A stretch of DNA of 64,000 nucleotides from Styela clava (Eukaryota; Chordata; Ascidiacea; Stolidobranchia; Styelidae). How positions within the stretch are numbered: position 1 is the first letter of the stretch; each line of letters starts with the position of its first letter. Location of the stretch: positions 7,502,001-7,566,000 of the forward strand of contig NC_135261.1 in NCBI RefSeq assembly GCF_964204865.1, read 5' to 3'. Both the position numbers and the translations under genes were made by a program. This document shows positions 22,160 to 64,000 of this stretch, piece by piece. Below the pieces are notes generated by a model. It was given only the letters and a program-made list of their open reading frames with translations, ran no database searches and was not told the origin of the DNA.

Positions 22160-24931
22160 TTACAATAAACCATGACACATTCCATCAATGTATTCCAATC
22201 TCATGCACATGTGACCATACCATGTTTGAGGATAAACTCGAATGTATCGGCATATTATTACATTCGGAAACATGTTGGTGACCTTGGTTCTTCTATCATT
22301 ATTTCCAGTAAATATCTAAAATATATAATAAGGATCAAAAGTATCACAATAAGTTCAGTAGATCATATCAAAATATAGTAAATATAAGTGATAGTTGGAT
22401 TACAGTTGAGTATATATTAATCTAAATTAGGGGATTGCAACATTTTCTGTCGTTGGGCCCTATAACCAACTTCAGACATCTAGCTGGGCTACACAAAAAA
22501 TAGTTTTTTCATGTAAATACCGAATAAAAAAATTCTTGTTCAGCCTTACAGCTATAAAGGCAACAGGCAAACGGCCGAAGATTTAACGCAGCGACAAGAA
22601 TCATGTGAGCGCTTTTTTAAACATAAATGTCGGATTAGGATTTTATTCTTGATGAAAAAAATCTTGAGTGTTGACAAAGGCTCTGATATAAGTAAGAAAT
22701 AGCCACTATGAAGTGTAGAACTCCCCGCTTGTCAACAAATTTCTCTGATAAGAGTTTTTCATGCATTTTGCTGTCTCCTTGCCAAGTTAACTGGTATCTA
22801 ATTTAATTAATGAGTATAGTTTTATAATAAGTCACTATTTCTTTTATATATATATGTTTTTTATTTGAATTCCATATGAAAGACCCCAAATTCGCTGCTG
22901 ACTAGCTTGTTAACAATGACTAGAAAATCCCATATTATGATAAAACTGTTGAAAATCATTATTATTTGCAAATCGAGCTTGATTACTAAATACATCCTAA
23001 ATGCAGTTTTATAAAGGCAAAAAGAGTTTCGAGATACTATCTTACCTTGTCTGAACCATTCTCTTGTATTGTTATCATTGCGCTGGTAGAATTTCCATAC
23101 GATATTTTGAAAGACCGAACCCAATTATCGTTGCGTGCTCGTCCCTGTGTCACGATTCCTCCTATTGGTTTTGGCGCCTTGAAATATACCTGATGCCATT
23201 CTCCTATTGCACCTATAAAAATGAATCATTTATTTTAATATTCTACGAAGAGATCATCCCACTTACATTTTTTAATGCACACAGTCTAAATTCTATAATT
23301 TTGCAACAGGCAGAAGAACTTACTAGAAATCAAAGTTAAATCAAATAGTAACCACATTGCACTATAAGTGCAGAAAGATTTACCAGAAATAACTACTATA
23401 CGATTCATTGCATTCTGTGTTATATGATAGATATTTTTGACCGTGATAATGAACTCTTTCAATTTCATAATTGAGTGCGAAATAATTTAAAGTTTGTTTT
23501 GAAGTTTTATTGAGAACTTATGTACTTGTCAAATATGATATAATTTAACAAACATTCAAATAAATTTGTATAAATAAAAAATTTGGATAAAGACATAGTT
23601 TCCGCAAACGCGAAAATAGTATATTTTGAAGCGCAAACTGTCAGTGATTTTCCATGATTATTTATTTTAATTGTAGAAAATCAAAATAACTTACTTCTAC
23701 CAGGAATCCAAACAGCGTACTTTCCGCCAGAACGATCCACATTGTCCAATCTTCCATAATAAGCTTGATAACTGGGACCATCAAATGATGAAGCTGTGAT
23801 TTGTGAGTCAGGAATGATATAACGATTCTTGACACCCATGTAGCAAATCTCAGCTGAAATTAGAAGTGACCACGCTGTGTATGGTAGGCAATTTCATATC
23901 TTGATTGTTTTTAGTTGGGAGCATTGTAGGGAGACAGAACTTCGGAAACAAATGTGGGAACATGCGATTGAAACCATAATTATTTTATAAGTTTTTGATA
24001 ATATTTTTTCGTCGAGGTTAGATATATTAACAGACTATCGTATTTATTATGAGCAACCATAATTAATTCAGTGACATGAAGTAAAGTCTCTCAACCTTAT
24101 AATAAAAGTTGCCATTGTCATATGATTGCCGCTCAAAACGACTCAGTTTGCCTATTTCTCTAAAATGCTTTATTTATGCAATATTTATATTTATTTATTC
24201 ATGCAATATTTATGTCTGATATAAAAACAGTTATTGGCACAGAGTGTGCCGTACACAGATATTACTCTTGTTTAATTTCAATGATTTTGACATTAATCTG
24301 TTTTATTTTCAAGCAAATGATTGAAGCCGGAAAAGGTGGAAATATACAAATGCAATTCAAATCAAGATCTTCGGCATATGTTTGACAGCAGTGAAATGCT
24401 TACAATTTAGCATATTCTTCATGAACTTTTGACTCTTCAGGAATGAATCTGAAATGAATAAATTAGATGATTAACAAATTGTTAAAATATTTTGAAATTT
24501 AGAGTTTTAATAACAGTTCTGTCTTGAACAATACAAGAGTCGTGTTCAGTTTGAGGTGAATTTCTTTGCACGTTAAATCAAAAAATATTATATTGAGAAT
24601 AAATGATTTGTAATAAATTGAAATTTATCAATCTAATGGAAAAATCTTTCCGATATGATTCGTTCAAACAATCACCTTCCAATTTCCTCATTCTTTCTTC
24701 TAGGTGTTCCGCTGTTCCTGGTTCACCCCGTTCTCCTTTTATTCCGGGTAATCCACGTATTCCTTCATTTCCTCTTTTTCCTGGCCTTCCCTGGCACTGA
24801 CTCGAGTCACATCTGGCGAGACTCGCATTGCCGTTTGCCACCACGTGTGAACAAAATTCATACAATGTTGGCATGTGACATAAGACACAAGGAAGCAGCA
24901 ATATAGAACAGCAAACAACAAAAGAATTCAT
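22160..24931 (-). CDS. Secreted collagen/F5-8C (discoidin) protein, array copy 1, 260 aa
   Basis: Exons (minus): 24931-24676, 24448-24404, 23853-23695, 23212-23046, 22315-22160; 783 bases in frame. Signal peptide 1-18; Cys-rich segment (C27, C41, C46) with a glycosylation sequon at N35; eight Gly-X-Y triplets from G48 to 71; helical linker 74-100; F5/8C domain 104-256, bounded by C104 and C256, with GRLDN, EWHQVYF, WVRSFKISYGN, IFTGNND and RYIRVYPQTW. By family the domain binds sugars or lipids through three loops, and the collagen stalk should trimerise. The layout resembles collectins and ficolins; a role as a soluble recognition molecule is inferred. A splice acceptor (atttag) lies just before the ATG, so a 5' UTR exon probably exists upstream. 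Intron 4 holds a decayed hAT-like MITE also present in copies 2 and 3. Confidence 0.9.
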
Positions 24932-25842
24932 ATTGTTATATCTAAATGCAGGAAGGAGAATATGAAAAGCTTTACAAAATATGTACAAATTTCAATAACA
25001 TAAATTGTCTCAAAAAGGTTAATTAATTTCCTGTACACTTCAACAACAAAATAGAATATACCTCCGTTCGATATCTGCATCGTGGGCATAATATTTGCTG
25101 GAAATTTTTCCAAAAACGTAGCAAATTCATAATTTAATCCCATCCCCTAATATATTCAAACAAGTCTCCCATAATATCGTTTTGTACTCTAATAATTTTA
25201 CCTTCTTCCTCAATTTACTAAGAATATTGTGGACTTTCTACACTGAGTGATGTCTTAAACCTCTTCTCAGCATACACGAATTTACAGACTAAATCTATTT
25301 CTGTCTTCTTCAATAAATAAAGTCTTAAATCTGATTTTCTGAGTGGAAATAGTCTGTGACGTACATAAGTTAAGTTTGCTTTTACCAAATTTGCAGATTG
25401 AAAGCGCCTTGTGTTGTTTAAACTTCTCAGCAGGGGTGAAATAACAAAAGATATCAATGGAGTCACTTGAGACAAGTGTTTCAGTTGAAGTTTGGGTCAT
25501 CTTCTCACGACCTTTAATATTTATATGTAAATCTTCCAATCAAATTGCGTGCGAAAGAAAACTAGTAGAAAAATTCCGTCGGTGGTAAATATTTTACCGT
25601 GAATCAACGAGACTATAAATCAATCCGTAAATTTCTGTTGCAAATTCATTCAATAAAAGGCAAATTAAATTATATGCAAATTAAATTCCGTTTAAATCAT
25701 TAACTTTCTATCATATTGATAATGTTATCAATTATTTCTTCTAATCTAAAATCCCTGTTTTCACATTTGAAAACCTAGATTTCCACCCAATCGAAATATA
25801 CTTATCGGTTACTTACTTACGAAAATTGATACAAATAAAGAA
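24932..25842. repeat. Upstream flank of array copy 1
   Basis: It matches 37142-38110 (copy 2) and, in part, 32475-33060 and 21125-21370. It should contain the promoter and a noncoding first exon, which I could not define. Shared marks include atcttctcacgacctttaat and the stretch around ccctgttttcacatttg. Confidence 0.6.
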
Positions 25843-26040
25843 TTAAACAAAAAACTGATGACGTCCCATCGTACCTTTCTCGTATTTGGTTTTGTAATGT
25901 CGCTTCAAATTATATTCTTTCGTGACGGATATTACTTGAAAACACACCAGACACTGTGGTTTAACGTTGTTGTGGGTAAGGAAACACATTGCTTTCCAGT
26001 TCACTTCGGTCACCTTTGTCAATAAACAACCAAGTCCGTC
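25843..26040 (-). pseudogene. hAT transposase N-terminal zinc-finger fragment
   Basis: The minus strand reads, in one open frame, a segment ending at the stop codon 25843-25845 with KPQCLVCFQVISVTKEYNLK followed by RHYKTKYEKG. This matches the N-terminal finger of Charlie-like hAT transposases and their domesticated relatives, where the pattern is CLVC...EYNLKRHY-x3-H. The final His is replaced by Tyr, so the finger is broken. No other part of the transposase lies beside it. It is a relic, not a gene. Confidence 0.75.
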
Positions 26041-27116
26041 TGAGTTGAGTCTCCTGACTCAGCTAAAAAAAAACGAACTGCGTGGCTCTAACTAACTTTT
26101 ATTAGAAAAGTAGTACTAGTAAAGCACCTCACGAATACAGCAATGAATTCGATTACTGAAACTTAATCATTTGTTATTTTAATCACCATTTGTGTTTATA
26201 AATATTCATATACAGATATTTAAAGAAAGTTCGGTATAGTAATTATATATGGTAAATCATAACTGTCATCATTTAAAACCATATTAGAGATAACAACTTA
26301 TCTAAGATTGGTATATGTCTTATCAAATAGGATTATGCAACTGTGTTTACAAGCTGTTAACAACTATATATGATAATTTAAAACCAATCCACGCATGATT
26401 ACACGATGAAACGAAGTTACGTTCTTGGAAACGTGAATAACACTATCAAGAAGACGTTTCATTCATATCCGGAGCAAAAGTTTAAAAAGTACCAAGGTGA
26501 CTTCATATAGTGTTGAATGTGATGAACATTTATCGCATGATGCTCCTATGAACACACGCGCTTATTTATTTCAATTGGAAATAAACGCATTTGACTTCTT
26601 ATCTTCAGCAATGACGTATTTAAGCTCAGTCAATCTTTAGACTTATGTTATAGTGATAAAAGCGTAGGTATGGTTGTGTCAGTCATTGGAAATGCAGAAT
26701 AAAATCACGGGCTAGGCTTAATTTACTTGCCAACCTTTTTCCGGAGCAATCGTTTGAATACATCTTATAAATGTCAAAAATATATTACATTTTACGGCTT
26801 AATCAAAGTCTATGCATCTGGGACAAATCTTCTTCGAGCAAGAGAAGTGCCAAATCTTCCTTCATCTCTTTAATAGTAACACACTATATAATCTGAGTTT
26901 ATTGGATGAAAGTCTTTTTTCATATTACCTCATGATTGAAGTTAGGTTTTACGAAGTGAGAGGTGGCGAACTCGTGGTTTAAGATAGTGTAGCGTACCGG
27001 CAATGTATGAAATAATTATCCAGGTTCAGAATATCTTCTAATATGATCTGACCTCTAGTTTCCTCTCAATAGTCCAAGTCTTTACGCTATATTATGTCAT
27101 TTATTAACAACTCGAA
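26041..27116. other. Gene-free stretch
   Basis: No exon, repeat copy or transposon end was recognised in this stretch. Confidence 0.4.
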
Positions 27117-27660
27117 CAGTGAACGATCCAAAACAACCAAACACTCCAAAGGAACGGAAAGCATAAAATAAAAATAACAGATACCAGGCAGTAAAATACA
27201 AGAAAGACCACATACACAATAAAAAACACTGACCAACCCTGAAATCGAAGACACTTTCAATAGAAACTAAATGACCCCCAGAATCCAGTACAATAAACTA
27301 GCTACTGCAATTTACAAAACAGGCCGAGACATTTAAAAAGACTATAAACAGTTCTATAGGTGCACAACATTTGAACAATACTGATGAAAGCTAATTCCAC
27401 GACAAAACTGGAAACACAACACCAAATGAACTGTAATTGCACTGTACTGATAAAAACAATAACACGGTCCCTACGTCAGCACACTGTCCAGCACTAAACA
27501 TCCAACGGTCACACAACCACAGACAAACATCCCCGAAGACCAGAGGCACCCACACAGACACAAAACACCCACCAATTCAACCGAAACACTCAGACGACTG
27601 GCCCTCGTCAACCCACGGTGCAGACCACGCCGCAAAAAGGGAAGGCTGACAGTGTCACAG
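27117..27660. other. A/C-rich, strand-skewed island
   Basis: The plus strand is strongly biased to A and C (for example acacaaccacagacaaacat), unlike the balanced AT-rich sequence on both sides. A plus-strand open frame at 27437-27649 has a composition-driven Thr/His/Pro-rich product with no recognisable domain. It could be a fragment of a retroelement or of a transcribed repeat; undetermined. Confidence 0.4.
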
Positions 27661-28163
27661 CGCCACCAAGTGTCCTCGCAGATAGAATACCAAATATGGA
27701 AACGATATCACATGACGTCATTTAACAGGCAAAACAAGGGTCGTCACAATAGGTATGGATAAGAGTATTGATTTTCAACTGCAAAAACGCAATTCTTTAT
27801 TTAATAATATCAACTAGAATACCTTTATTGAATAATATTGGCGTCTGTACGTAGCGGGAACATATTTTAAGCTATGAGTAGGGTTACCATATTTTTGTGA
27901 CTTCAAAGCGGGACGCCTCCAAAGATCAAGACCCTCAGCTGCAGTGGTGTATCTAGGTAAAATGGCGCCCATGGCAAAGGTTTAGAAATGCGCCCCCTAC
28001 TTCGCTTGTTTCCTCTTTCGTTTACATGAAATTGATTGCTCTCAACTACGCAACATAACAAGCAATTTAATAACTACACAATAAACAATAAGCAGTAGAC
28101 GGTCGGGCAATAACAAGATCTTAGAATAGTATATTTCGTGACGCAAATTTGCCAATGATTTCA

Positions 28164-28349
28164 TCAAAATTTTTTGTTTTTGTTTTTACCCTCTTTATAC
28201 TTAATATAGCCAGATCGCAAAGCTTTCCTGGCTAATTGAAGATCGAAGGTATGATGTTTTAGTTCACTAAACGACCGATCGCAATTTTCTATGGATACTG
28301 CCAATGTCAGCAAAATTTGCAAAGCTATCCGGAGATTGAGGAAATTCAA
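28164..28349 (-). pseudogene. hAT transposase C-terminal dimerisation fragment
   Basis: The open frame includes NLRIALQILLTLAVSIENCD followed by RSFSELKHH, which matches the conserved C-terminal dimerisation region of hAT transposases (pattern LxILLTLPVSxxxxERSFSxLK). Only about 45 residues of the domain remain and the catalytic core is absent. It belongs to the element 27942-29045. Confidence 0.85.
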
Positions 28350-28397
28350 AAATTACTCTTTGACACACACTGTTTTCTCGTCATAGTCTATATCTTA

Positions 28398-28680
28398 CAT
28401 GGGCAATCTACGGCCTGCTGGCCAAATCCGGCCCGTTGGCTATTTCAAACTAGCCCGCCTGATGCTTCCACAACCAAACTAAAGCCAAATTTTGATGTTT
28501 TAGCTGAAAAATAGCTCGAGCAGTTTGTTTAGATTGCGATTAAATTTAGTTTTGGTACGATGCTTGTTGTTTTCCACTTTTGCTTTTGTAATACTGTAAA
28601 TATTGTCCATAATATGTAACTATTTACGTCACAATTACATGGCCCGTCACTATAGGCGGGCAAAATATGGGCCCGTGAAC
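28398..28680. mobile_element. MITE nested in the hAT element, inverted relative to 49774-50069
   Basis: It shares long stretches with the reverse complement of 49774-50069, such as atccggcccgttgg, gcccgcctgatgct and gattgcgattaaatttagtt. The ends are blurred by divergence, so limits are approximate. Confidence 0.7.
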
Positions 28681-29045
28681 CAAAGACCATTTTATTCCAT
28701 GCGATATTCATTTAAGAATCCCACTACATTTTTGCCTTTCCTTTTTAATTTGTACATGGAAATCGGCGTCAATAATTCCTGTTTATTGCTCAGATTTCTA
28801 TCCACGCTCCACAAGCATGAGGTTTCTCTCCGGTATGGATTTATAAGTGACTGAACAAACTGCATTGATCGTTGGAAACTGCAAACTGCATTGACTTTTG
28901 TTAAATTTGTTCTGATTTAATTAGAAATACGAGTTTCATTCATTTTCAAGTTTTATTGAAAATTAAACAATTAGAACTTTTTGCGTTTTTGCGCCCCCGT
29001 CCAAACGGCACGAGCCATGGCTGCCATACCCTAGATACGCCAATG

Positions 29046-30343: not shown

Positions 30344-30577
30344 CTGCGATGTTATTGCACCGTAATCGTAAGTTGGAAGCCGATAAATAAAGACATTGTC
30401 TCGTTAAAGTGTCTGACATAGACGTGACGTATTTTGTAGTCGAGGCGTTGCTGTTGCTAATCGATTAGCGACAGACGATTAGCTGTCGTCCACAAACCAA
30501 CAAACAACAAGTCAATATATACTATCTCACCCCCAAACTGGTACCAAAATAGCACTAGCTTTACTGCGTTCTATGAC
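30344..30577. repeat. Interspersed repeat, copy 2 (copy 1 at 966-1200)
   Basis: Same orientation as copy 1, with shared text ctgcgatgttattg, acagacgattagctgtcgtc and ccaaactggtacc. Nature unresolved (solo LTR or SINE-like). Confidence 0.6.
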
Positions 30578-30628
30578 GCAGTAAATAAGTCTGTTAATAA
30601 ATTTATCGACGAGGAGGTCCGTGTAACC

Positions 30629-31087: not shown

Positions 31088-31129
31088 GACTGTAGCCGAT
31101 ATACGTCTGCGTAAACGTTAACTGCTCAA

Positions 31130-34319: not shown

Positions 34320-37141
34320 TTACAATAAACCATGACACATTTCATCAATGTATTCCACTCTCATGCTCATGTAATTATGCCATGTTTGAGGATAAACTCG
34401 AATGTATCGACATATTATTACATGCGGAAACATGTTGGTGACCTTGGTGTTTCTGTCATTATTTCCAGTGAATACCTGAAATATATAATAAAGATCAAAA
34501 ATATCACAATAACCTCAGTAGGAACTAACAAAATATAGTAAATAGTGAATATAAGTGATAGTTCGATTACAGTTGAGTATATATTAAACTAACACAGGGG
34601 TTTGCAACATTTTTGTCGTTGGGCCATATAACCAACTTCAGACATCTAGCTGGGCTACACAAAATATAGTTTTTTCATGTAAATAACGAATTAAAAAATT
34701 CTTGTTCAGCCTTACAGTTATAAAGACAACAGGCAAACGGCCGAAGATTCACGCAGCGACAAGGGCCATGTGAGCGCTTTTTTAAACATAAACTGTCGGA
34801 TTAGGATTTTATGCTTGATGAAAAAAATCTTGAGTGTTGACAAGGGCCACACTAAATCGCGTTCCTGGTTGTGGCCCGCAGCCCGCCTGTTGCACATCCC
34901 TGATCTAAATATTAAATAGCCACTATGTAGTGTAGAATTCCCCGCCTGTCAACAAATTTCTCTGATAAGAGTTTTTCATGCATTTTGCTGTCTTCTTGCC
35001 AAGTTAACTGGTATCTAATTTAATTAATGAGTATAATTTTATAATAAGTCACTATTTCTTTTCTATAGATGTTTTTTATTTGAATTTTATATGAAAAACA
35101 GCAATTTCTCTGCTGGAAAGCTCGTTAACAATGACTAGAAAATTCCATATTATGATAAAACTGTTAAAATCATTTTCATTTGCAAATCTAGCTTGATTAC
35201 TAAATACATCCTAAATGCTGTTTTATTAAGGCAAAAACAGTTTCAAGATACTATCTTACCTTGTCTGAACCATTCTCTTGTATTGTTATCATTGCGCTGG
35301 TAGAATTCCCGTACGATATTTTGAAAGACCGAACCCATTGATCGTAGTCTGGTCGTCCCTGTGTCACGATTCCTTCTATTTGTTTTGGCGCCTTGAAATC
35401 TACCTGATGCCATTCTCCTATCGCATCTATGAAAATGAATCATTTATTTTAATATTCTACGAAGAGGTCATCCCCACTCACATTTTCCAATGCACCCAGT
35501 CTAAATTCTATAATTTTGCAACAGGCAGAAGAACTAACTAGAAATCAAAGTTAAATCAAATAGCAACCACATTGCACCACATATAAGTATACGTTTGATT
35601 GCATTCTGTGTTATATGATAGATATTTTTTACCGTGATTATGAACTCTTTCGAGTTCATAATTAGTTGTGAATTAATTTAAAGTTTTTTTTGAAGTTTTA
35701 TTGAGAATTTATGTACTTGTCAAATATGATATAATTTAACAAACATTCAAATAAATTTGTATAAGTTAAGAATTTGGATAAAGACATAGTTTCCACAAAC
35801 GCGAGAAAAAAGTATATTTTGCAGCGCTAATTGTCAGTGATTTTCAATGATCATTTATGATAATTGTAGAAAATCAAAATAACTTACTTCTAACAGAAGC
35901 CCATACAGCCCACTTTCCCCCAGAACGATCCACATTGTCCAATCTCCCATAATAAGCTTGATAACTGGAACTAGAAATTGATGAAGCTGTGATTTGTGAG
36001 TCAGGAATGATATGACGATTCTTTACACCCATGTAGCAAATCTCAGCTGAAATTAGAAGTGACCACGCTGTGTATGGTAGATAATTTCATTTCTTGATTG
36101 TTTTTAGTTGGAAGCATTGTAGGGAGGAAGAACTTATGTGCGGAAACAAATGTGGGAACATGCGATTGAAACCATAATTATTGTAAATGTTTTTGATTAT
36201 ATTTTTTCGGCGAGGTTAGATATAATAACAGACTATCGTATTTATTATGAGCAACCATAATTAATTCAGTGACATAAAGTAAAGTCTCTTAACCTTATAA
36301 TAAAAGTTGCCATTGTCATATATGATTGCCGCTCAAAACGACTCAGTTTGCCTATTTCTCTAAAATGCTTCATTTATGCAATATTTATAAATATTTATTT
36401 ATGCAATATTTATGTCTGATATAAAAACAGTTATTGGCACAGAGTGTGCCGTACACAGATATTACTCTTGTTTAATTTCAATGATTTTGACATTAATCTG
36501 TTTTATTTTCAAGCAAATAATTGAAGTTGGAAAAGTTGGAAATATACAAATGTAATTAAAATTAAGAACTTCGGCATATGTTTGACAGCAGTAAAATGCT
36601 TACGATTTAGCATCTTCTTCATGAACTTTTGACCCTTCAGGAATGAATCTTAAATGAATAAAGTAGATGAATAACAAATTGTTAAAATATTTTGAAATTT
36701 AGAGTTTTAATAACAGTTCTGTCTCGTAAAATTCAAAATTCGAGTTCAGATCGAGTTATAATTCTTCGCACACTAAATTAAAAAATAACATATTGAAAAT
36801 AAATGATTCGTAATAAATTGAAATTAATTGAAAATTATTTATCTGATGGAAAAATCTTTCCGATATGATTCATTCAAACAATCACCTTCCAACTTATTTA
36901 TTCTTTCTTCTAAGTGTTCCGCTGTTCCGGGTTCACCCCGTTCTCCTTTTATTCCCGGTAATCCACGTATTCCTCCATTTCCTCTTTTTCCTGGCCTTCC
37001 TTGGCACTGACTCGAGTCACATCTGGCGAGACTCGCATTGCCGTTTGCCACCACGTGTGAACAAAAGTCATACAATGTTGGCATATGACAAAGAACACAG
37101 GGAATCAGCAATACAAAACAACAAACAACAAGTAATTTCAT
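34320..37141 (-). CDS. Secreted collagen/F5-8C protein, array copy 2, 260 aa
   Basis: Exons (minus): 37141-36886, 36648-36604, 36046-35888, 35426-35260, 34475-34320; 783 bases, same lengths and phases as copy 1. The signal peptide, Cys-rich part and eight Gly-X-Y triplets are nearly identical to copy 1 (one triplet GNG instead of GNE). The F5/8C domain keeps the frame residues but differs from copy 1 in the loops at 124-127, 150-154 and 178-183 and at 242-246 after PQTW. An upstream acceptor aatag lies 18 bases before the ATG. Intron 4 contains a MITE (34595-34902). All splice sites and the reading frame are intact, so it is probably functional. Confidence 0.9.
34595..34902. mobile_element. 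hAT-like MITE in intron 4 of array copy 2
   Basis: Ends caggggtttgcaac and gttgcacatccctg are inverted repeats. Diverged copies occupy the same intron of copy 1 (about 22432-22680) and copy 3 (about 40276-40552), so insertion came before the gene duplications. It is a useful dating mark for the array. Confidence 0.75.
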
Positions 37142-40052: not shown

Positions 40053-42414
40053 TTACAATAAACCATGACACATTCCATCAATGTATTCCACTCTCATTAT
40101 CATGTGATTATTCCATGTCTGAGGATAAACTCGAATGTATCGACATATTATTACATGCGGAAACATGTTGGTGACCTTGGTGGTTCTGTCGTTATTTCCA
40201 TTAAATACCTGAAATATAAATAGGGATCAAAAGTACAACAATAAGTTCAGTAAACCATATCAGAGTATAGTAAATACATTGTAATTGTCGTTGGGCCATA
40301 TAACCGACTTCAGACATCTAGCTGTGCTACACAGCAAATTAAAAAATTCTTCCTCAGCCTTACAGTTATAAAGGCAGCAGGCAAAACAGAAGAAGATTTT
40401 ACGTAGCGAAAGAGCCATGCGAGCGCATTTTTATACATAAACTGTCGGATTAGATTTTTATGCTTGATTGAAGAAAATCTAAGTGTTGGCAGCGGCCACA
40501 CTGAAGAGCGGGCCTGGTTGTGGCCGACGGACGCCTGTTGCACACACCTGATCTAAATCATAAATCGCCAATATAAAAAAAATGTAGAATTCCACGCTTG
40601 ATAACGAATTTCTCCGATGTGAAATTTTCATTCGTTTCGCTTTCTCTTTGCCATCTTAACTGGTGTCTACTTCAATAAGAGTATTTATTAAGTATAATAG
40701 TATAAAAGATTAAATTTTAGATGAAAGACCGCAACCTTGATTGAAGCAACCTTGATGACCCGGAAATCCCATATTGTGATAAGAGTGTTGAAAATCATTT
40801 TATAATAGCAAAATGGGTTTAGAAATACTACCTTACCTTGTTTATTAAGTATAATAGTATAAAAGATTAAATTTTAGATGAAAGACCGCAACCTTGATTG
40901 AAGCAACCTTGATGACCCGGAAATCCCATATTGTGATAAGAGTGTTGAAAATCATTTTATAATAGCAAAATGGGTTTAGAAATACCACCTTACCTTGTCT
41001 GAACCATTCTCTCGTATTGTGATCATTTCGCTGGTCGAATTTCCATACGATATTTTGAAAGACCGAACCCAATTATTGGCATCTGGGCTTCCCTGTGTCA
41101 CGACTCCTCCTATTGGTTTGAGCGTCTTGAAATCTACCTGATGCCATTCTCCTATTGTATCTATAAATATCAAATATTTTATTATTCTACGAAGAGGTCA
41201 TCCCCACTCACATTTTTTAATGCAGTCAGTCTAAATTCTAGTATTTTGCAACAGGCAGAAAAACTAACAGAAATCAAAGTTGAATCAAATACTACCACAT
41301 TGTACTATAAGTGCAGAAACGATTTACGAGGAATAACTACTATACGTTTTATTGCATTCTGTGTAATATGATAGTCTTACTCTTGGCAATGATAATGAAC
41401 TCTTCCGAGTTCATAATTGGGTGTGAAATAATTCAGAGCTTGTTTTAAAGCTTTTAAAAAATAACTTCATAATAACTCAAATATGCCATAATTTACCAAA
41501 CATTTACAAAAATTAGTATAAGTTGAGAATTCGGATAAAGACACAGTGTTCACAAACGTGAAAAGAGCATACTTTTCAGCAAAGAATGTCAGTGATTTTT
41601 AATGATTATTCTTATATTAATTATAGAAAATCAAAATAACTTACCTCTTCTAGATAACCATACAGCATACTTTCCCCCAGAACGATCCACATTGTCCAAT
41701 CTCCCATAATAAGCTTGATATTGGTTATTGTAAATTGATGAAGCTGTGATTTGTGAGTCAGGAATGATATGGCGATTCTTTACACCCATGTAGCAAATCT
41801 CAGCTGAAATTTATATCAGAATTATAAGCTGGTATATATGTTTTATAATGTGACATTTCATTTCTTGATTGTTTCATTTGTATTAGCAGGAAACACTGAA
41901 GTATTCCGAGGAACATTACTTAAACCGGGAATATGAAAATACAATTCCACGTAATGATTCTGCATATGTTAACAGTAGCAGAATACTTACGATTTTTGAT
42001 TGCCAAAAGCTGCTTTTGAGTCATCAGGAAAGAATCTTGAAAGAAAAAAAAAGGATGTTGAAATATTTAGGAATATGTACTATGTATAACATGTATTAAT
42101 TGAAAGGTAATTAACCGATTACAATACATGCTCAGACTTATTTGGTTCAACTCATCACCTTCCAACTTCTTTATCCTTTCTTCTAGATGTTCCGCCGTTC
42201 CAGGTTCGCCCTGTTCTCCTTTTATTCCGGGTAGTCCACGTATTCCTTCATTTCCTCTTTTTCCTGGCCTTCCCTGGCACTGACTCGAGTCACATCTGGC
42301 GAGACTCGAATTGCCGTTTGCCACCACGTGTGAACAAAATTCATACAACGCTGGCATGTGACATAGCACACAGGGAAAGAGCAAAATCAAGGTAACAGCA
42401 ACGGAAAATTTCAT
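40053..42414 (-). CDS. Secreted collagen/F5-8C protein, array copy 3, 260 aa
   Basis: Exons (minus): 42414-42159, 42035-41991, 41803-41645, 41160-40994, 40208-40053; 783 bases with the same lengths and phases as copies 1 and 2. Signal peptide MKFSVAVTLILLFPCVLC, Cys-rich part, eight Gly-X-Y triplets (one is GEQ in place of GER), helical linker, F5/8C domain. The linker exon is the most changed part outside the loops (FLMTQKQLLAIKN). An acceptor atttcag lies 23 bases before the ATG and the 23-base leader is shared with copy 4. Intron 4 next to the exon 4 donor contains a fresh 157-bp tandem duplication. The frame is intact. Confidence 0.9.
40684..40997. repeat. 157-bp tandem duplication spanning a splice donor
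   Basis: Unit 1 is 40684-40840 and unit 2 is 40841-40997; I see only one base difference (atactacctt against ataccacctt). Each unit ends with ccttaccttg, so on the minus strand both carry the exon 4 donor aag/gtaagg of array copy 3. The donor used is the one joined to the exon (40993/40994); the other, at 40836/40837, is a decoy inside intron 4. Confidence 0.9.
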
Positions 42415-48700: not shown

Positions 48701-49148
48701 TAAAAGAAACAACCATTTCAAGCAATACTTGATATTGTTTTAAAAGAAGCAATGATATACGTAAGATTAGACTATTTCGTTTGATATTTATTTTGAGCAA
48801 GTTTATGTGAATAAAATTTATACCTTCATCTACTAAACTTGTATGTAGTTTAATAAATAAGCAGAACAAAAATGTTAACTCCATTTTTTAGATATTTCTA
48901 GACTACCCTAAATATTGACGAGGTATTTGTTTTTTCATAAAACTCTTATCTGTCAATCATGTGGATAAATTTAGATAATCAACATTGTTCGACAACCACT
49001 CATAGGTATCGACATATTATTAAATGCGAAAACATGTTAGTGACCTTCGTGTTTGTGTCAATATTTCCTGTAAATATCTTAAATTAAGAAATGATTCAAA
49101 ATATTAAAGTTAGATCAATATTTAATTACATACGGGTATATTTTTTTT

Positions 49149-49181
<33 letters not shown>

Positions 49182-49773
49182 CAACTGTGGAATGTGGGAA
49201 CACTCACTTGTCAACGAAGTTTTCATAATAAAAATTTTCTGAGAAGTTTATTGAGAAATCTGCAGAATTCGCTATCAATAACTTCATATATTTTAAATAC
49301 ATGTTAACATGCATCTACTTAAATATCTGAACAGAAAATGGAAATGATATGTATGTTCTTTGGCGTTAGGGGTCGCTGTAGAGTTGTGACTGTTCTAGAG
49401 GTATCTTTTCAATTTCGGACAAAGGCTTTGAAATATCAGAAATATATTATCAATTTATAACAATGGGGCCCAAATATACTAAATTCACGCTTGTGTTCTT
49501 GTTGGATTAAAAGCGGGTAAATTATATTTGATTAATTCAAAAATAAGTTTTGATACTACAGTACCTTGTCTGAACCATTATCACGTGTTGTTATCATTGT
49601 TTAAAAACTTGTCTTACTTGTGTCACGATTCCTCATTTTGGTTTAGATGTCTTGGAATCTATTTCATGTCATTCTCCTACTTTATCTATCAAAATTCTTT
49701 ATTCATTTCAAAGAGTTTTCAATTTTATACTCCGACTAACATTTAAGAAGCTCCTGCACTGTATACTATAGAT

Positions 49774-50069: not shown

Positions 50070-50077
50070 CTATAGAT

Positions 50078-52560
50078 GAACGTTCTTTCGTAACATGCAG
50101 ATGAATTAGAAAGATTGAATCAAGGACCATAATGCATCAAAAGTTTAGTAGCTTCAAACACATCTGACCATTAATATCGCCAAATCCCGACACATTTCGA
50201 GTACACGTTTCAAACATTTCTTTGTATTTTGGCTGAAGTCAGCTAAATTGGACTTCTCTAACAAGTAACAAACAATTGAAATAGTTTCCAAATACTAACT
50301 TCTGTAATTGTAAATTTGAATGAATTCTAAAGTTATTCAAATATACAACTCCAAATTTAGAGGATTTGTATTGAAACCGGATGTTTCCATATCTATTTTG
50401 AATATATTCCTTTTTTTGGCCATCATCCCTGTTGCAAATTAAATTTAAATATAATCTCAGCACGTCAGCAAATGCTCGTCCTAGAATGCAGATAACAGAT
50501 CTGGAGCGATAAAGTTTATTACAAAACGAAAAATGCAACACGCAGCTGGAATAGAATCATTATTGAGCTAAAAAACCATTCAATACAATAATAATTACAA
50601 TGAACAATCATATACCATATACCAAGCCTGTTGAGTTATAGGGAATAGAAATAAAGATGCTACAACTTGTACCAGTTGGTTCCCCAGCTTTTTATTCCAA
50701 ATTTGGAGGGTGGTAGATATTTTGTTATTGGCGATAAAACTATTTACAACTGATAAAAATGTGTTATGTATTTGGCTGATAATTTTTACCGGCATATGTG
50801 CCACTTTTTGAATATTCAAATACAATTTTATTTACGTTAAGAATTAAAGTATTGTGTCAGACCCAAAAATGAGAGGGGGTGTTTGAAAGTTTAGGGGGTG
50901 TTCACCCCCTATAGGAGGGGAGGGGTTGAAGGGAAATCACTGACTTGTACAACGATATTTATGTTTGAAAGAAGATTATAACAGCAAATACACATTATCA
51001 CAATTTAAGCACGTGTATATCGTAACAATTCAATTATACCGGTATCTTAACGTACGTACCGGTATGAGGATTGCGTACGACAGTCTTTTAGGTATCACGT
51101 ATCAGCCCTATATTAAGGAAGCTTGAAGATGTCACAAAAACGAAAACTAGACACTGAAAACAGGCGTTTTTCGGATAAATGGCAACGTTCTTATTTCTTT
51201 ATTGAAAAGAATCAAACTTCAGCAATTTATATTCTTTGCCAACAAGCTATTCTTGTTCTATTCCTGTTATAAACTACGGTCCAGACTGACAGATAATCAC
51301 TTAGAGTGCGGTATTGCAAATACAATGTAACAAATTGGAGCCACGTTTTGAACATCAGTTTTCAAGCAAACCCCAATTACAAGTATCTACAAAAATGCAA
51401 GTGAACTATGTTGGCTATTCGTTTTTTTTTAATATTCATATACATTGAGACGTTTTTTTGTTTAACAAAAAAAAAACATGAGTCGCTATCTGGGGTCATC
51501 TCTTATCTCTGGGGTCAATCTCAACCTCTGTGTCAGTGGATAATATTGGTAGTACAACTGCAAAAACCATACTCACCAGAGATAACAGTGTTTTATAAAC
51601 TTCAACTACAAATTTAATTAGATAACAAACCTTGGGTGTCGCTGCCTGATAAACAGTTCCCAGCGATTTCCCTTCCCAGTAAAATGTGTGTCAATTTTAC
51701 TTTTTTCATAATTTCGTTTGTTATTTTTACTGGATGGAAAAAATAAACTTGACCATGATATGAGTAGACATTTATACAAAGCCGTACTCCAGATGAGCAA
51801 GTAACTTCATTAGTCGCTATCAGTTACAAATCCTTTTTGAAAGTCGTGCTTGTTATTCCTCGGGTATTCTATCACCCAACTATTATACTTTTGAATTTTA
51901 TTACAAACAAACTGCGATACTGGGTGTATCTAAAATGAATCTTGCAGCCTATTTTGGTGCCTATTTTTCAAAAATTTTTCAGGGAACGCCCTGAACCCCA
52001 GCCTTTACGTCGGGTTTTTTTGGTCATCTCGCTTTACTGGCCCGCGAGTATCCTCACCTTGAAATTTTGGCCCGCGGCCAAATAAGTTTGGGAACCCCTG
52101 ATCTAGATTGTGACGCATCGTGTCGTCTGACTTTTTTCCAGTGCTTCTGTTTGGCTTCAATATACGCCAGCATAGCCGCCAAATCCTATATTTTGAACTT
52201 TTTTTTCATAGGATTTTGTATGTGGACGGCCGCATTTTTTTCGCGACGGCCACATGCGGCCGTACGCCGCAGGTTGTGCACCGTTGCTCTAGATCTTAAA
52301 AATGTATATTGTTATTCAAGTTACTATCATATTTTGGTTTCCCTTAATATTACCCTTAACTTGTTGTGAAGATTCTAAAAATAACATCTGTACTTTAAAT
52401 GTGTACTGTATCTGTACATCTGTAAATTTTAAGATGTTCAAATAAAATTGCATAATTGAGAAATTGGAAAAACATCTTCACATTTGTAAAATTTTCATGC
52501 AAACAAATATCGGTCAATTGGAACGATTATTGAATAATAATTATGTAAAATCAAAATCAC
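50078..52560. other. Long intron of the pseudogene, with transposon fragments
   Basis: No exon was recognised. A G-rich patch at about 50868-50940 (gaggggaggggttg) could form a quadruplex. At about 51985-52300 there are hAT-like ends (ttgggaacccctgatctaga and gcaccgttgctctagatc), both next to a TCTAGA core. Reading frames at 50239-50541 and 50595-50825 (minus) have no domain I know. Confidence 0.4.
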
Positions 52561-53399
52561 TTACTTATCTGTGTAGCCCAGTATGGATACCTTCCCCGAT
52601 CTAGATTGTCCAATCGTCCATAATAAGCATGATGATTGTTATAGAAAACTGATGAGGCTGTGATTTGTGAGTCAGCAATGATGTGACGATTCTTTACACC
52701 CATGTAGCAAATCTCGGCTGGAATTTATATCAGAATTATGAGGAAATAGTAAATATTGTATATTATGACGTTTCATTTCATGATTGTCTCATTTGTATTA
52801 GCTGGGAACAATGAGCACTGTAGGTGTTTCGAGTTAATTAAACCGGGAATATGAAAATACAATTCAACGTAATAACATATATCAACAGTGGTAGAATACT
52901 TACGATTTGTCATCGCCATGAGTCTTTTATTCATCAAGAAAGAATCTTGAAAGAAAAAAAAACAAGAACGTTGAAATATTCAAAAATATGTACTATGTAT
53001 AACATGTATCAATTGAACCGTAATTAACCAATTACATTACATTTTCGGAATTATTCGTTTCAAATCATCACCTTCCAACTTCTTTATTCTTTCTTCTAGA
53101 TGTTCTGGTGTTCCAGGTTCTCCTCTTACCCCGGGTAATCCACGTTCTCCTTTATTTCCTTTTTTTCCTGGCCTTCTTTGGCACTGACTCGAGTCACATC
53201 TGGCGAGACTCGCGTTGACGTTTGCCACCACGTGTGAAAAAAAATCATACAATGTCGGCATATGACATAAGTCACATAACACACAGGGAAAAAGCAAAAT
53301 CAAGGTGACCACAACGATAAATTTCATATTAGATTTTCGGATAATATTTCCTAAAATATATTAGCAGAATTGGATTAAAATGGTACAAATGGTAAGTTC

Positions 53400-57758: not shown

Positions 57759-59861
57759 AAACCATACTTTTATCCTTTGTAAATACGCTCCAAATGTCCT
57801 TAATTCACAAAGTATAAACATCGCTAAATATTACATTCTTTTATTTTCAAAAATATATCTCCTGAATATGTTTAAAAGTTGGGTCAGGGCTTTATGGCAT
57901 TTTTTTTTTATCAGAGTCAAAGCATGGCATCTGCTATTCTCTAGCTATCTAGATTCTAGAATGTGATACTCACAACAGTGATAGTGTCAAACTGTTCATA
58001 AAAACTGATTTAGCGTTTTTAGCAGGATATTAAAGAAGGACTAAGCACGCCAAAGTTGTTTTCGCCAAAATTTTGTTTTCTCAAAGTTCTAAACTGGACT
58101 AGGAGTCTAATGTTTTCTAAACCCGGAATAAAATTCAGAGCTCCGGTTATATTTCTATAACTTGAGGTCGGATTCGATTGTAAATTTTTTCCTCCTCACA
58201 ACCATGCGCTAACAAGTAAAGTTTCATAGTTTTCTCCGAACAAGGCTTTTATCGAGTAATTTTAGATTCATTTCCTGTTAGAATTAAATTGGTAAAACTT
58301 TTGTGACCGCATGGAGAAGTCAACTACACATCTGTATTGTACACGCGTAATATAAAACCATTTCTGTTAATTGTTTATTCATTCGTTAAATGTGTAATTC
58401 AAGATACTAAACGTCTAAATCAGGGGTGGGCAACTTCTCTAGTCGGCGGGCCAGATGAAAAAAAATAAAGCCCTCGGCGGGCCGGATTATTACAAAAAAT
58501 ACTCCGATATCCAATCTTTGTTAAATGCTCGACACTCTCTGTCAACTTTACGTTTCTTGGGATATTACATGGTTAATAAAACCTAATATAAAACCTAATT
58601 TCTAAAATCTTTTTATATTTAGATTCCAAATATAACTGATAACAGTAGTGGGGAATGTTCACAACGCTCTCTGCTCTGACCTTATATTGTTTGTATAACA
58701 AGTGTGCTAACGCAATTGTTTGTTTACTAAGACAATTGTTTATTTCACCAGCCCACACTGACGGTGCGGTGAGAGTAGAGCAATCGGCAACTTTCATGAA
58801 TGATGCGTCGGACCACATTACAGAGTGGTTGGATACGAGCTACTTGATGATAAAATATAGCTCAGTTGCACTTTACCATTACGAATCGCGGTTGGAAAAA
58901 AGACTAGTCGTGTTATCCAGATCTAATGAATAACTTGTTTCACTTTTCTTTAAAAAATTTGAGACATTAGAAATGGATGTTTAGGGAAGACTGTTTTATA
59001 TGCCAATTGCTATAATGACGTCCCGATGTTTTATGATGGATAAAAAGAGAGTCAAATTGTGTAGACGTATATGACGTCACCAATGATGTCACAAATTCGA
59101 AGTATTATTATACAAAGTTAAGGTATGCCATAATGATTATTCTGAGTCTAAATATCTTAAAATATTCCGTAACATCAACTTTTTATAAATTGTAGCTAGT
59201 TTTAATTGATTGATCTTTAAAATGAAAACCATTTTTCAACCTTTTTAAATGACACAATTTGATTCTTAAATGTCATCAGAAACTGATTTTTTTTGTAATG
59301 ACATCACAGTCTCAATAATCGAATTTGACGGCACTAACTATCTATCGTTTCAAAAACTGAAATCTTTGACTGGCGTAATAAACTAAGTATTATAATGACG
59401 TTTATATGATGTTTATTATGACGTCACGGATGCAAGCTTTAAAATGGCGTCATAAATTCGAGATTCTGAAAGACGTCACAAACTTAAGATTTAAACGAGT
59501 TCACAAAATTTAGCTGCTTTTGAATAAAATTTCTGGAATGACGTAGAAAACGTAGAAAGTTTTTGATGATTTGCTGAAAACCGAAATTTTTGAACTGGGC
59601 TAAACTTTCAGAAACTTAGCCCGGTAAATGAAAAATAAACGTCTTACTTTTAACTTCTGTGTGAGATATACTAAAGGTGCTAATGAGATATGCTGTAATC
59701 ATTTCTGTACGTTTTCCACATAATCTAGTTCATAGTATTTCATGTTGGTTTGCTATGGGATATATTTATAGCCTGTTACAAATATATATCATAAATTCTT
59801 GAAATAATGTTTTTTTTTATTTAGCTGGACATTATTAGTATTACATAAAATCTTGCTTTAA
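57759..59861. other. Gene-free stretch with a hAT fragment and a cluster of TGACGTCA-like sites
   Basis: At 58421 caggggtgggcaacttctct, followed by ggcgggcc repeats to about 58490, is a hAT-like left end; no right end was found. Between about 58990 and 59560 many copies of tgacgt or tgacgtca and close variants occur (tatgacgtcaccaatgatg, tattatgacgtcacgg, aaagacgtcac). They could be CREB/ATF-type sites or just the motif of a tandem-like repeat. No exon was recognised. Confidence 0.45.
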
Positions 59862-61304
59862 AGGTGGGTTATCACACAAACATTTTTGTAGCAAATTTGA
59901 TTCTATATAATTTATTACGATTTTTGGCGTTTATCGTTTGCATAAAATGGACCTCGTTTGCGAGACTCGTATTTTTAAAAGTCGACCCTGCCGAAATCGA
60001 ACGCAAATTAGTATGTCCCGTTGATGACGTAGTAGTGAGATCTCGTAGGCGAAACTTTGCATTAGGTCAAAGGCAATTATAGCATTCTGTGTACTCGTTT
60101 TGAACCGTGTGCTAGTTCTATTGGGCGGCGCATTTGGAGGAAGCTTTTGTGATTTAAATCAATACCAATATCTTTAAATAATATTATTGCATTATGAGAA
60201 ATTGCAATGTGGAATGTGAAAATGGAATGTGTAGTTGGTGGTTACAGCAGATTTTACAGGGATGGATCTGTCTTGAAGCAGAAAACTATGGATAAAATTT
60301 TCGCAAGTAACCTCTCCGTGGAACTAAAAGAAGACCTCTAAGTCGAAGGATCGTTTCAGCCTTAAAATTATGTTGGAATCCTTGCAAACTTCTACCCACA
60401 GCCCGAAACGACAATACTTCACGCAGTTATTCAAATCAGTTTTTATTTATTTTTAACATTTTATTACAAGTTTTCATCATATGTAATTCATTCATGCCAA
60501 AAAATGTGTTGTCACGAATCTCCATTAGTTGATCGATAACAACTGGACTGTGTTGTTAATAGCAGAGTGCACTGGAAAACGAAGTATACATTAAATTGAT
60601 GGAACTGACATAAAAATAAGATCAGGATAATATCACCAGACAGTTTAGTAAGGTTCAACATACAACAGTGTCTTGTTGCATAATAATGTGAAATGAATAT
60701 AAAAAAAAACTGAGCCATTATTGGGATTGTACGTTTATCTGGTACCGGTAGTAGACTATCACTCTTTTGGTAAATGTACAAATTGGCGATTTGTATTTGT
60801 TGGTTCATACAAAAGTGTGACTGGGTATCATCATGCTTTGACTAAATATTTTTATCAACCAGTCGATAAACGAAATAAAGTGGTAAATACTTACTCTAGA
60901 ATCAGTTCTTCAAAGCCTCCTGACGTACCGGTACGATCATTACATAAAACGCCTTGGCTTGATCCCCTCACATTCAGAACTTCTTATGCATTAGCATTTA
61001 GGCTTAACAATACATTATTGTTTCAATCTTTATTATGCTAAGCGATGAGAAACTAGATTTAAACGCCAAAAGCAGGTTGAACACCTAACTCGCCAATGAC
61101 GAGGGAGCTAATTTCTGGAATGAGTTCTCACTACTACGTCATCGAAGGCCGTTTCCGATACTGGGTCGATTTTCGTTGAAGCGGTTTTTAAAAATTCCTA
61201 AGTAGAAAACTAAGTCCACTTTATGCAAGCGGTAAACGTTAAAAATCTTAAAATAATATATAGAATCAAATTTTCCACAAAAATGTGTGCGTGATAACCC
61301 ACCT
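59862..61304. mobile_element. TTAA-flanked DNA transposon relic with long inverted repeats
   Basis: TTAA lies directly outside both ends (59858-59861 and 61305-61308). The ends begin aggtgggttatcac and match as inverted repeats for at least 100 bases; shorter matches continue to about 185 bases (gatgacgtagtagtgaga at about 60023 against its inverse at about 61120). TTAA targets point to piggyBac- or Kolobok-type elements. No transposase domain was recognised; frames at 59864-60082 and 60721-61041 lie in or beside the repeats. It is probably a nonautonomous copy. Confidence 0.75.
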
Positions 61305-61389
61305 TTAAGCCACAAAATGTTGCCTATTATTCAAAGTATTGTCGTGTGACGTCAAAAACGTATTGGAAACGTCTTTCATCATTCTTTAA

Positions 61390-61704
61390 AGCGTGGTTCT
61401 CAAACTTTTTAAATCACGACTCCTTTTAAGAATTTGTCAAGTCTTGCGAACATCTCAAAAATAACTCGCTAACAATAATCTACAAAGAACAGATATTAAG
61501 GCGAAAGTATATTTTATTCGAAAAACACGTCGGAAATACTTGGATGAAAAATAAATATCCAAAATAAAGAAATTTAAAGATTCAAAATAAGATCAAATCT
61601 AAGAAATATTTTTTAATTTCAATTAGCCTGGCGCCCCCTCGAAAATTTTGCTACGCCCTCAGCACCCCCAATTTGGATGGCACCCAACCGTGAAAGAACC
61701 ACTG
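61390..61704. mobile_element. hAT-like MITE with GTGGTTCT ends
   Basis: The left end cgtggttctcaaactttt and the right end aaagaaccactg are imperfect inverted repeats of the common CAGTGGTTCTCAAA type. The inner part matches 12550-12780. Another left end of the same kind lies at about 62600 (cagtggttctcaaacttttt). Confidence 0.7.
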
Positions 61705-62600
61705 ATTTAGCAGATGATATTGTATACTTTTAAATAACAGTGAACAAATTGATTCATTTTAATCGCGCTGAAGTCCTATTTTTTCGGTTTTTCAACCTGC
61801 ATCTCTTTCTTCAATTTTGCCCCAAATATGACCCATGATTAACTAGATATTATGCCCCTAATAATCCGAAATTTCTAAACTTTAAATGATAGGGAAAATT
61901 CTCAAAAACATTGCCTGATACAATCTTTCAACGTTTCTTCCAGTTTACCGCCATTCTTGGTTTTCCATTACTTATAATGGTAAAATATTATGTTCAAAAT
62001 TAAAAGCATTATCAGAGTAACAGTGTTTCGTGATTGATCGAAATGATCTAGTTATTGGTCATGAAATGGGATCCTTTTTCCAATTGTTGTTTATTCAAAT
62101 CTTCTTCTTGTTGTTGCTGTTTTTTGTTGTACGGGAACAATTGGCCTTTCTATCGATTTTCGAATTACCTGTTCTGTGAACACGGTTGCACCAAAATGTT
62201 GCTGTTTCGTTAATTCAATGGTGATTATGGGAACACTGGGATTAAGGGGGGACACTACGCATTAATATCTCTTTGTTTGATGACATTTTGACTTGAATAT
62301 AATAAGTGTAATATATATACAATTGAGTATGAAATGAAATGGGGTTCAGTGATATGTGACCTGTCATTATTCAAAATTTAGTGAGTGCAACCGGGTGTAA
62401 ATCTTCTCTTCTTTCACGTCATTTCGTCAAATAAAACTCAAGCAAACGCTTCTAAAATGCCATGAGTAAGGTTTTAGAGCCTATTATTTGACAAAAAAAA
62501 CGTTCTTTTTTAAAATTGACCATTGGATAACAGTTTGAATAGAGGGAATCCTGTTGCCCTGATTCAAATATATTTCTTGGAAACGTCTTTCTTTGGAACA
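61705..62600. other. Gene-free stretch
   Basis: No exon or repeat partner was recognised. Confidence 0.4.
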
Positions 62601-63939
62601 GTGGTTCTCAAACTTTTTAAACCTCGTCTCATTTTAGAATTTGCCTTGCGCCTCACCTGAAATATAACTAGCTAACTAACACCGAGTTATAAATGAATAA
62701 CATTTTGAATGTCTGGGCTCCTAGGCTCCAGCCTACCTGGCCTAATGGTAAAAATCCGATACTGCTATAAGCCCAATGTCAAAACGCAAAACAGTTATAT
62801 TTTCTTACCGTTGCCACAGTGCCGCGTTCCCTAGCGGTCGTTATCTGATGAATTATTTCTATTCCCGTAGTGTGTGTACCACTTCGGGGCTACGCCATAA
62901 TTTTATTCCGATTTTCCTTATTTTATTCACAAGTTCGGGGACTGTCTGTGGTGGCCCAGTGAACATACCCCCCCATAGGCTTCCGTCCCTTTACACAACG
63001 ACAACTTGATGTGAAGTAGGCGAACAAAATTAATTACCTCCATATTGGTACACACTTCTGGAACGCCGCATTGTCAACTGCACGCCTAATGACAAAACAT
63101 ATAACAGGTTTATTGTCGATGTGCGCTACCTCGAACAACAGTTGACTACTGCCTTGATCTAATCTGATCGGCGAAATAAAATATTCTGTAATTATTCCAC
63201 CAGATGGGGAATAGGTTTTTTTACAGGAAGGTATGACCGATAAATGCCGTCAGCGACGTTATCATGAATTTGCGAGTTAAGCAGCCATTTGAGACATTGT
63301 TTAATCAAAAGTGTGTGATATATATTTTGTGATGTAGTAATACAATTAGCATTTGACAATTGTCGCTAACTTAATTTCGTACGCTTTTTTAGCAAAAAGA
63401 CCTGGCCCCAGTCCCAATGTTGTAGAACTTACAGATACATAGCATATTGTATTGCAAAACAACAAAGATATCTAGTAGCTGACATAGAATGACAAATGAG
63501 AAAAAATTCATCGAACACTAAAAACATTGATATGGCAATAATGTAGAATAGGTATATTATATACACGGTAAAAAACTGAATGAATGCCAGAAGTGTATTT
63601 AACGGAGAGCCATGCTCAAATAGATTAACACGAAGATCAACGCGAAGCAGAACAGTCCCACAATTGGGGAAAATGGATTGTTTTAACTTCGCGCTCTATG
63701 AATATTGAGAGTTGGAAAATAAAATCAAAAAATTTAATATTGCGTGGCGTGCATTCAAACTAAATCGTGGATAAAATGGAACAAAGAAAAAAACTGAAGA
63801 ATAGAAATCAACGAAAGACATGCGTTTTAACATCACCGTATAACAGATTGGTATTTGCTGTTAAATCTAACCCGGTGTAAAATTATTAGTATTGTAATTA
63901 TAGGAATCTCGGGATATTGACAAGTTGATTCCATGTCAG
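62601..63939. repeat. Downstream flank of a fifth array unit
   Basis: 62680-63240 matches 31427-31800 and 38855-39330 (aatgaataacattttgaatg, ccctagcggtcgttatctg). 63300-63939 matches 31870-32150 and 34000-34319. It leads straight into the stop codon of copy 5. Confidence 0.7.
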
Positions 63940-64000
63940 TTACAATAAACCATGACACATTCCATCAATGTATTCCAATCTCATGCTCATGTAGCTTTTC
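63940..64000 (-). CDS. Collagen/F5-8C protein, array copy 5, last exon (partial)
   Basis: The window cuts this exon. The minus strand ends with the codons for MSMRLEYIDGMCHGLL and a stop at 63940-63942, as in copies 1-3, which places the C-terminal Cys of an F5/8C domain here. The residues just before (KSY) differ from all other copies at the same loop. The rest of the gene lies to the right of the window, so intactness is unknown. Confidence 0.85.
   Translation of the reverse strand, partial: KSYMSMRLEYIDGMCHGLL

Follow-up and report, generated by a model that had tools for sequence, protein, structure and literature searches.

A 64,000-nucleotide stretch of the Styela clava genome (positions 7502001 to 7566000 of contig NC_135261.1, here C16, in a 376.6-Mb assembly), which we call the window, contains part of a minus-strand tandem array of genes in which a short collagen stalk is joined to a single discoidin (F5/8C) domain. 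These genes probably encode secreted, trimeric recognition molecules. Differences among the copies are focused in the loops predicted to line the binding pocket of the discoidin head, as expected for recognition molecules, and it is as if the animal kept a stock of them in different shapes. Our favoured explanation combines secreted recognition molecules, a diversified pocket, docking of a MASP-type protease and opsonisation, and we give it as a whole a probability of about 50%. Its parts differ in strength: recognition through the diversified pocket is very likely, a role in immunity is reasonably likely, and coupling through a MASP-like protease is a tentative proposal.

Architecture of the array genes

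The original prediction described five same-strand units between 22160 and 64000, each of which encodes, or once encoded, a signal peptide, a Cys-rich N-terminus, a short collagen stalk, a helical linker and one F5/8C domain. The orientation and position of the units stand, and their layout is borne out by gene models, Pfam matches and inspection by eye, but only three of the five are intact genes (u1–u3); u4 is a pseudogene and u5 reaches the window with no more than the end of its coding sequence. We built the models of u1–u3 by hand from splice sites. Each has coding exons of 256, 45, 159, 167 and 156 bp bounded by GT/AG splice sites and encodes 260 amino acids. In u1 (24931–22160, minus strand; its stop codon ends at 22160), exon 1 (24676–24931) encodes the signal peptide, the Cys-rich N-terminus, the collagen stalk and the start of the helix, and exon 2 (24404–24448), 45 bp in phase 1-1, encodes the helical linker. 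The first third of the F5/8C domain, with loops 1 and 2, lies in exon 3 (23695–23853), its middle with loop 3 in exon 4 (23046–23212), and its end with loop 4 and the stop codon in exon 5 (22160–22315).

The same organization is found, also on the minus strand, in u2 (37141–34320; exons 36886–37141, 36604–36648, 35888–36046, 35260–35426 and 34320–34475) and u3 (42414–40053; exons 42159–42414, 41991–42035, 41645–41803, 40994–41160 and 40053–40208). By hand derivation from the exon coordinates, loop 1 of u2 occupies 35961–35978, loop 2 occupies 35888–35900 and extends 5 bp into exon 4, loop 3 occupies 35338–35355 and loop 4 occupies 34365–34379. Reading the flanking sequence showed that the array extends past both window edges, with an intact gene, u0, upstream and the remainder of u5 downstream; at C16:7.20 Mb there are two other closely related copies, v1 and v2. 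A chance origin is implausible, since u1–u3, u0 and v2 all retain the exon lengths, phases and reading frames, and the discoidin domain outside its variable loops is conserved (see below).

The product of each intact gene consists of a signal peptide, a stretch with three cysteines, eight to nine Gly-X-Y triplets, a short helical segment and a single F5/8C domain. Judged by eye, the u1 signal peptide is about 18 amino acids long and the helix after the stalk about 26 residues; between them lie the mature N-terminus, HMPTLYEFCSHVVANGNASLARCDSSQC, with its three cysteines, and the collagen stalk, GRPGKRGNEGIRGLPGIKGERGEPGT. The N-terminal cysteines are at positions 27, 41 and 46, and the Gly-X-Y register is exact in u1–u3. 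When u1–u3 were compared with Pfam, F5_F8_type_C (PF00754) matched with 75–89 bits (cut-off 28.2; E down to 4e-25), while Collagen scored 17–20 bits, under its cut-off of 27.2. Neither Lectin_C nor Fibrinogen_C matched u1–u3 at E up to 0.1, in agreement with the proposal of a collectin- or ficolin-like order that ends in a discoidin head. The terminal cysteine pair of the F5/8C domain, Cys 104 and Cys 256, is kept in all seven copies read. By sequence, the closest solved relatives are neuropilin-1 (phmmer E down to 5e-29), lactadherin and coagulation factors V and VIII.

Variation is concentrated in the loops of the discoidin head

Among u1–u3, and among seven copies in all, differences concentrate in four loops of the F5/8C domain, and the scaffold is conserved. 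Alignment to the b1 domain of neuropilin-1 (NRP1) places many of the u1–u3 differences on the loops that hold Y297–W301, T316–D320 and S346–Y353, which published accounts of that domain describe as its pocket loops L1–L3 (PMC8945599; PMC12624434). The fourth variable loop follows a conserved TW. With L1–L3 defined from the literature, 12 of 14 pocket columns vary among u1–u3, compared with 24 of 145 others (Fisher 2.3e-7); this test used the stretches of published pocket residues with N313 left out, and the variation had been seen beforehand. The borders of the four loops were likewise drawn after the varying columns were visible.

In the seven copies (u4 left out, u5 and v1 without exon 2, and v1 one codon short), columns with at least three residues number 18 of 23 in the loops and 5 of 136 outside, and those with at least four number 13 of 23 and 1 of 136. 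The pooled ratio of nonsynonymous to synonymous differences per site (pN/pS) is 1.25 in the loops, 1.80 in the literature-defined L1–L3 and 0.27 in the rest of the discoidin domain. None of 20000 random codon sets reached the loop pN.

The most telling comparison is between the recent duplicates u0 and u3. They differ at 13 of 999 bases of their 5' flanks (1.3%), 1 of 256 in exon 1 (0.4%), 2 of 45 in exon 2 and 2.3–3.3% of their introns, and at 11.3% of exon 3, 10.8% of exon 4 and 5.1% of exon 5. Within the four loops, 24 of 69 bases differ, compared with 40 of 1398 in the introns (Fisher 1.3e-17; the intron count excludes 182 gap columns, all but one of them in intron 4), and 14 of the 16 changed loop codons alter the residue. 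For u1 and u2 the corresponding counts are 22 of 69 and 148 of 1848. Divergence of exons above that of introns is likewise a feature of venom genes, and the u0/u3 pattern could be taken to mean secreted toxins, or adhesive or mucus proteins, aimed at prey, predators or surfaces. We consider this quite improbable: the u0/u3 excess is restricted to the loops, the other sequence of exons 3–5 lies near the intron rate (20 of 413 bases compared with 40 of 1398; p 0.06), and the stalk and N-terminus are strongly conserved.

A second array, on contig C13, shows the same pattern in weaker form. Among six of its 11 copies with strong exon 1 matches (in one of the six, L079, exon 4 has diverged at its end), columns with at least three residues number 10 of 22 in the loops and 8 of 125 outside, and pooled pN/pS is 1.22 in the loops and 0.36 outside; here the loop borders were transferred by alignment after the translations had been seen, and loop 2 is one column shorter. 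Pooled pN/pS thus points to excess nonsynonymous change at the ligand-binding face in both the C16 and the C13 array, and this face is probably under diversifying selection, aided by recombination among copies.

A pocket pN/pS above 1 in two arrays would be unexpected for structural proteins, and a stalk of this length is too short for a fibre. Both points speak against proteins of the extracellular matrix or tunic whose discoidin head would bind host matrix and whose loops would track changing host ligands. Such a role would suit the collagenous stalk, and F5/8C domains often bind matrix or membranes, but we hold it to be a long shot.

Relationship to known recognition proteins

The collectins (MBL, SP-A, SP-D and CL-11) share with the array proteins a signal peptide, N-terminal cysteines, collagen, a helical neck and a recognition head in this order, and the stalk and neck of the array proteins show weak similarity to collagen chains (E 0.006 for the top match, a collagen IX fusion) and to SP-D (E 0.17). 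They differ in that the array proteins carry an F5/8C head in place of a C-type lectin domain, eight to nine triplets and a partial MASP motif. Ficolins, which have been reported with collagen in tunicates (PMC11312191), also join a collagen stalk to a globular head, but theirs is fibrinogen-like. Collagen-containing C1q-like proteins, such as a rotifer C1qDC protein with a short collagen of about nine glycines and a globular head (PMC8878817), show a similar arrangement with a C1q head. Because the head differs, the array proteins are members of neither the collectins nor the ficolins; their layout may nonetheless work like that of a collectin or ficolin, and we class them provisionally as a variant of the soluble defence collagens.

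From the side of the head, neuropilin b1/b2, the C2 domains of factors V and VIII, lactadherin and retinoschisin share the F5/8C fold, with loop positions as in NRP1 b1, but in the array the pocket loops are hypervariable between paralogues. Neuropilin, factor V/VIII, lactadherin and retinoschisin are not known to carry a collagen stalk. F-type lectins, among them the eel agglutinin isoforms and oyster bindin, have an analogous fold, and their isoforms vary in loops around the binding cleft (PMC5712786). The F-type lectin motif H-X24-R-X-D-X4-R/K (PMC5712786) is present in none of the seven copies tested, even with spacings of 24–28 and 4–6 allowed, and we rejected an assignment to this family; the word collagen is absent from the available text of the same review.

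That the family could be undescribed was part of the original prediction, and our searches of the open-licence literature agree: they returned no description of a recognition family that combines collagen with F5/8C, and there is none in the available portions of PMC5549309, PMC2527998, PMC11312191, PMC5465252, PMC12549020, PMC8878817 and PMC514892.

A multi-copy family with a conserved stalk segment

A genome search with exon 1 gave 82 matches, 52 of them with E < 1e-8, on contigs C1, C2, C3, C4, C6, C10, C13, C14, C16, C17 and C18. The parallel search with PF00754 scored 150 of 205 candidates, and the pairing counts are lower bounds. At least 43 of the 52 strong stalk exons have an F5/8C match, intact or not, within 6 kb downstream on the same strand, while at least two of the 52 have an opposite-strand match within 6 kb on either side; among the 30 weaker stalk matches, at least nine are paired with F5/8C. 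The genome holds at least 133 F5/8C matches, of which at least 77 follow a stalk exon match of either strength on the downstream side. In the copies read on C2 and C13, exon 1 and the F5/8C exons are alike when those exons are compared. On C2, stalk exons at 17572217, 17584478 and 17596739 have identical scores and a spacing of exactly 12261 bp, which points either to a triplication that happened very recently or to an effect of the assembly. Separately, a GH6 exon matched at C9:16179895–16180164 (E 1.5e-6), with a control that matched 0 of 14. Among animals GH6 is not known outside the tunicates, and the match is a hint of a tunicate genome, although it may come from a contaminant.

The stalk contains a conserved segment, for which we compared 50 stalks (45 distinct strings), with four of the 40 fetched (L070–L073) left out. 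Of these 50, 44 retain the Lys of PGK. Among the 40 distinct ungapped stalks, the best conserved non-Gly residues are the Pro (39) and Lys (36) of PGK, a second Lys (34) and the Arg after PGK (33). A common PGK(R/K)GN had been proposed for all copies of the array; it holds for u1–u4, which read PGKRGN or PGKKGN, but u5 reads PGKRGI, and members elsewhere have PGKRGP, PGKRGS, PGIRGI, PGEIGP and other versions. PGKxGP itself occurs in 24 of the 50 stalks (25 counting one SGKRGP). One subgroup (L045–L048 and L052, at C4:1.67–2.99 Mb and C3:1.94 Mb) has a shortened stalk with PGEIGP and has lost the conserved Lys, and would serve as a natural loss-of-motif control.

The loop pattern alone would fit a second kind of recognition equally well, in which the diversified pocket would pair sperm with egg or one colony with another and microbes would play no part. 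Two published observations favour it: oyster sperm bindin, which has the F-type lectin fold, has diversified under positive selection, with the selected sites grouped around its binding pocket (PMC5712786), and expressed sequence tags from Botryllus allorejection include transcripts with coagulation factor 5/8 domains (PMC2527998). Dozens of copies on ten contigs and a conserved collagen stalk better suit a soluble multivalent effector, however, and the array has fibrinogen-related (FReD) and C-type lectin genes nearby. We therefore regard gamete or self/non-self recognition as rather unlikely.

Remnants of the array and neighbouring genes

The pseudogene u4 runs on the minus strand from 53327 to about 48998. 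Its exon 1 region (53061–53327) encodes the stalk QRRPGKKGNKGERGLPGVRGEPGT, with Phe in place of the first N-terminal Cys, and also lacks the first Gly of the stalk. Exon 3 persists as a remnant at 52554–52724, exon 4 (49562–49695) has stops and a frame break, and exon 5 (48998–49104) has decayed. The final 61 coding bp of u5, including the stop codon, occupy 63940–64000 on the minus strand, and the gene runs on to window coordinate 69106. Its exon 2 is interrupted by a piggyBac-like insert of ~1.85 kb with inverted ends at TTAA (window coordinates ~66880–68725). Since the other copies have a 45-bp exon 2 of phase 1-1, skipping this exon would preserve the frame. In v1, no exon 2 was matched with the pattern used. 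In u3, a tandem duplication of 157 bp closely follows exon 4 (40684–40998) and overlaps the last 5 bp of that exon; its two halves match at 99%, so it is probably recent.

FReD genes flank the array on both sides in the same orientation, one with exons at 8223–9786 on the minus strand and a second beyond the array at window coordinates 75136–78804; no Gly-X-Y run lies near the first of these within the window. C-type lectin exons are found at 16747–17743 on the plus strand. Rfam and tRNA scans gave no matches.

Candidate complement partners

A MASP-like protease gene is present on the plus strand at C8:17361001–17370800, with CUB, EGF, CUB, CCP, a likely second CCP and trypsin domains, the last containing AAHC, ENDIAIL and GDSGGP. 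Of ten single pieces compared with Pfam, nine match the expected domain (CUB, cEGF, CUB, Sushi or Trypsin), two of them below the cut-off; the second CCP piece has no Pfam match and was recognised by eye. Four more pieces, one from the second CUB and three from the protease domain, were likewise read by eye. The first CUB is most similar to cubilin (E 2e-25), followed by MASP-1/3 (MASP-1, 9e-20). Our genome searches scored 150 of 350 CUB candidates and 150 of 551 trypsin candidates, and at least 11 loci show a CUB match followed downstream by a trypsin match (71 of 150 CUB and 54 of 152 trypsin matches compared), with the C8 locus the one that was read. CUB, F5/8C and trypsin matches also lie on one strand within 12 kb at C2:23984399–23995955, a possible mosaic protease. 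Thioester-domain genes are present in the genome, although this domain alone cannot tell C3 from alpha-2-macroglobulin.

Discussion

We propose that three chains zip together through the stalk and neck, and that the N-terminal cysteines would cross-link chains or trimers. The three discoidin heads would then offer a pocket of one shape per gene, so that the product of each gene would bind a different surface ligand, whether a glycan, a lipid head group or a peptide end. Clustering on a microbe or an altered cell might be sensed by a protein bound to the stalk at its conserved PGKRG segment, with opsonisation as the outcome; a CUB protease of the MASP type is the most plausible candidate for this partner.

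Several of our results count against this reading. The published MASP motif requires an aliphatic residue after the Lys and a final Pro, according to the part of that work available (PMC2592599). The window copies fail it, as they carry Arg or Lys in the Xaa position and end in Asn rather than Pro, and we rejected the exact motif for them. Across the family the Lys is absent in six of 50 stalks, and a non-polar Xaa (Met) is found in one of the 44 that have it. The predicted resemblance to PGKxGP is real at the family level, then, although it does not amount to a match to the published motif. The stalk is also far shorter than that of MBL. A search for C3 with the ANATO profile found no match, and its control matched nowhere either. 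In the head, we take loop 4 to be part of the pocket, where the papers cited above cover loops 1–3. The loop excess is also less than twofold for u1 and u3 (33 of 69 loop bases compared with 314 of 1258 intron bases) and for u2 and u3 (29 of 69 compared with 339 of 1279), and in the latter, one of three window pairs, the nonsynonymous divergence of the loops (dN 0.58) is below the synonymous (dS 0.79). Pooled pS is itself raised in the loops, at 0.32 compared with 0.17 outside in the seven copies and 0.22 compared with 0.17 on C13, and loop types are reshuffled among copies, with the nearest neighbour changing exon by exon.

The last two observations would be expected if patchy gene conversion between old, diverged copies had homogenised the scaffold and left older loops in place, rather than the loops having changed faster. 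Indeed, AAKRN of loop 2 is common to u0 and v1, with AAKR also in v2, loops 1 and 3 are nearly shared by u2 and v2, and the 3' flanks of u0 and u3 are 17% diverged while their introns differ by about 3%. As the introns flanking exons 3 and 4 of this pair differ by 2–3%, however, conversion would have had to end at or within an exon on every occasion. Among the six other copies compared, there is no close match to u0 exon 3 (nearest 8.3%), and holding the loops apart would still require selection. We judge conversion in place of faster change to be unlikely; selection and patchy conversion could both contribute to the loop differences.

Returning to the reading of the array as a set of soluble sensors, its fullest form is a germline repertoire: dozens of complement-coupled receptors, each with a fixed PGKRG stalk and neck and four hypervariable loops resembling complementarity-determining regions, spread and reshuffled through tandem arrays on many chromosomes. 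From the sequences at hand we consider this doubtful. The known collagen-stalked complement sensors have C-type lectin, fibrinogen-like or C1q heads. If the repertoire is real, it would add another collagen-based class of recognition molecules to the collectins, ficolins and C1q, one whose set of specificities is far larger and changes faster. The family in any case offers a series of naturally occurring pocket variants built on a single discoidin scaffold, and the combination of a discoidin head, dozens of copies, variable loops and a MASP-like gene makes a large germline repertoire of complement-style sensors directly testable.

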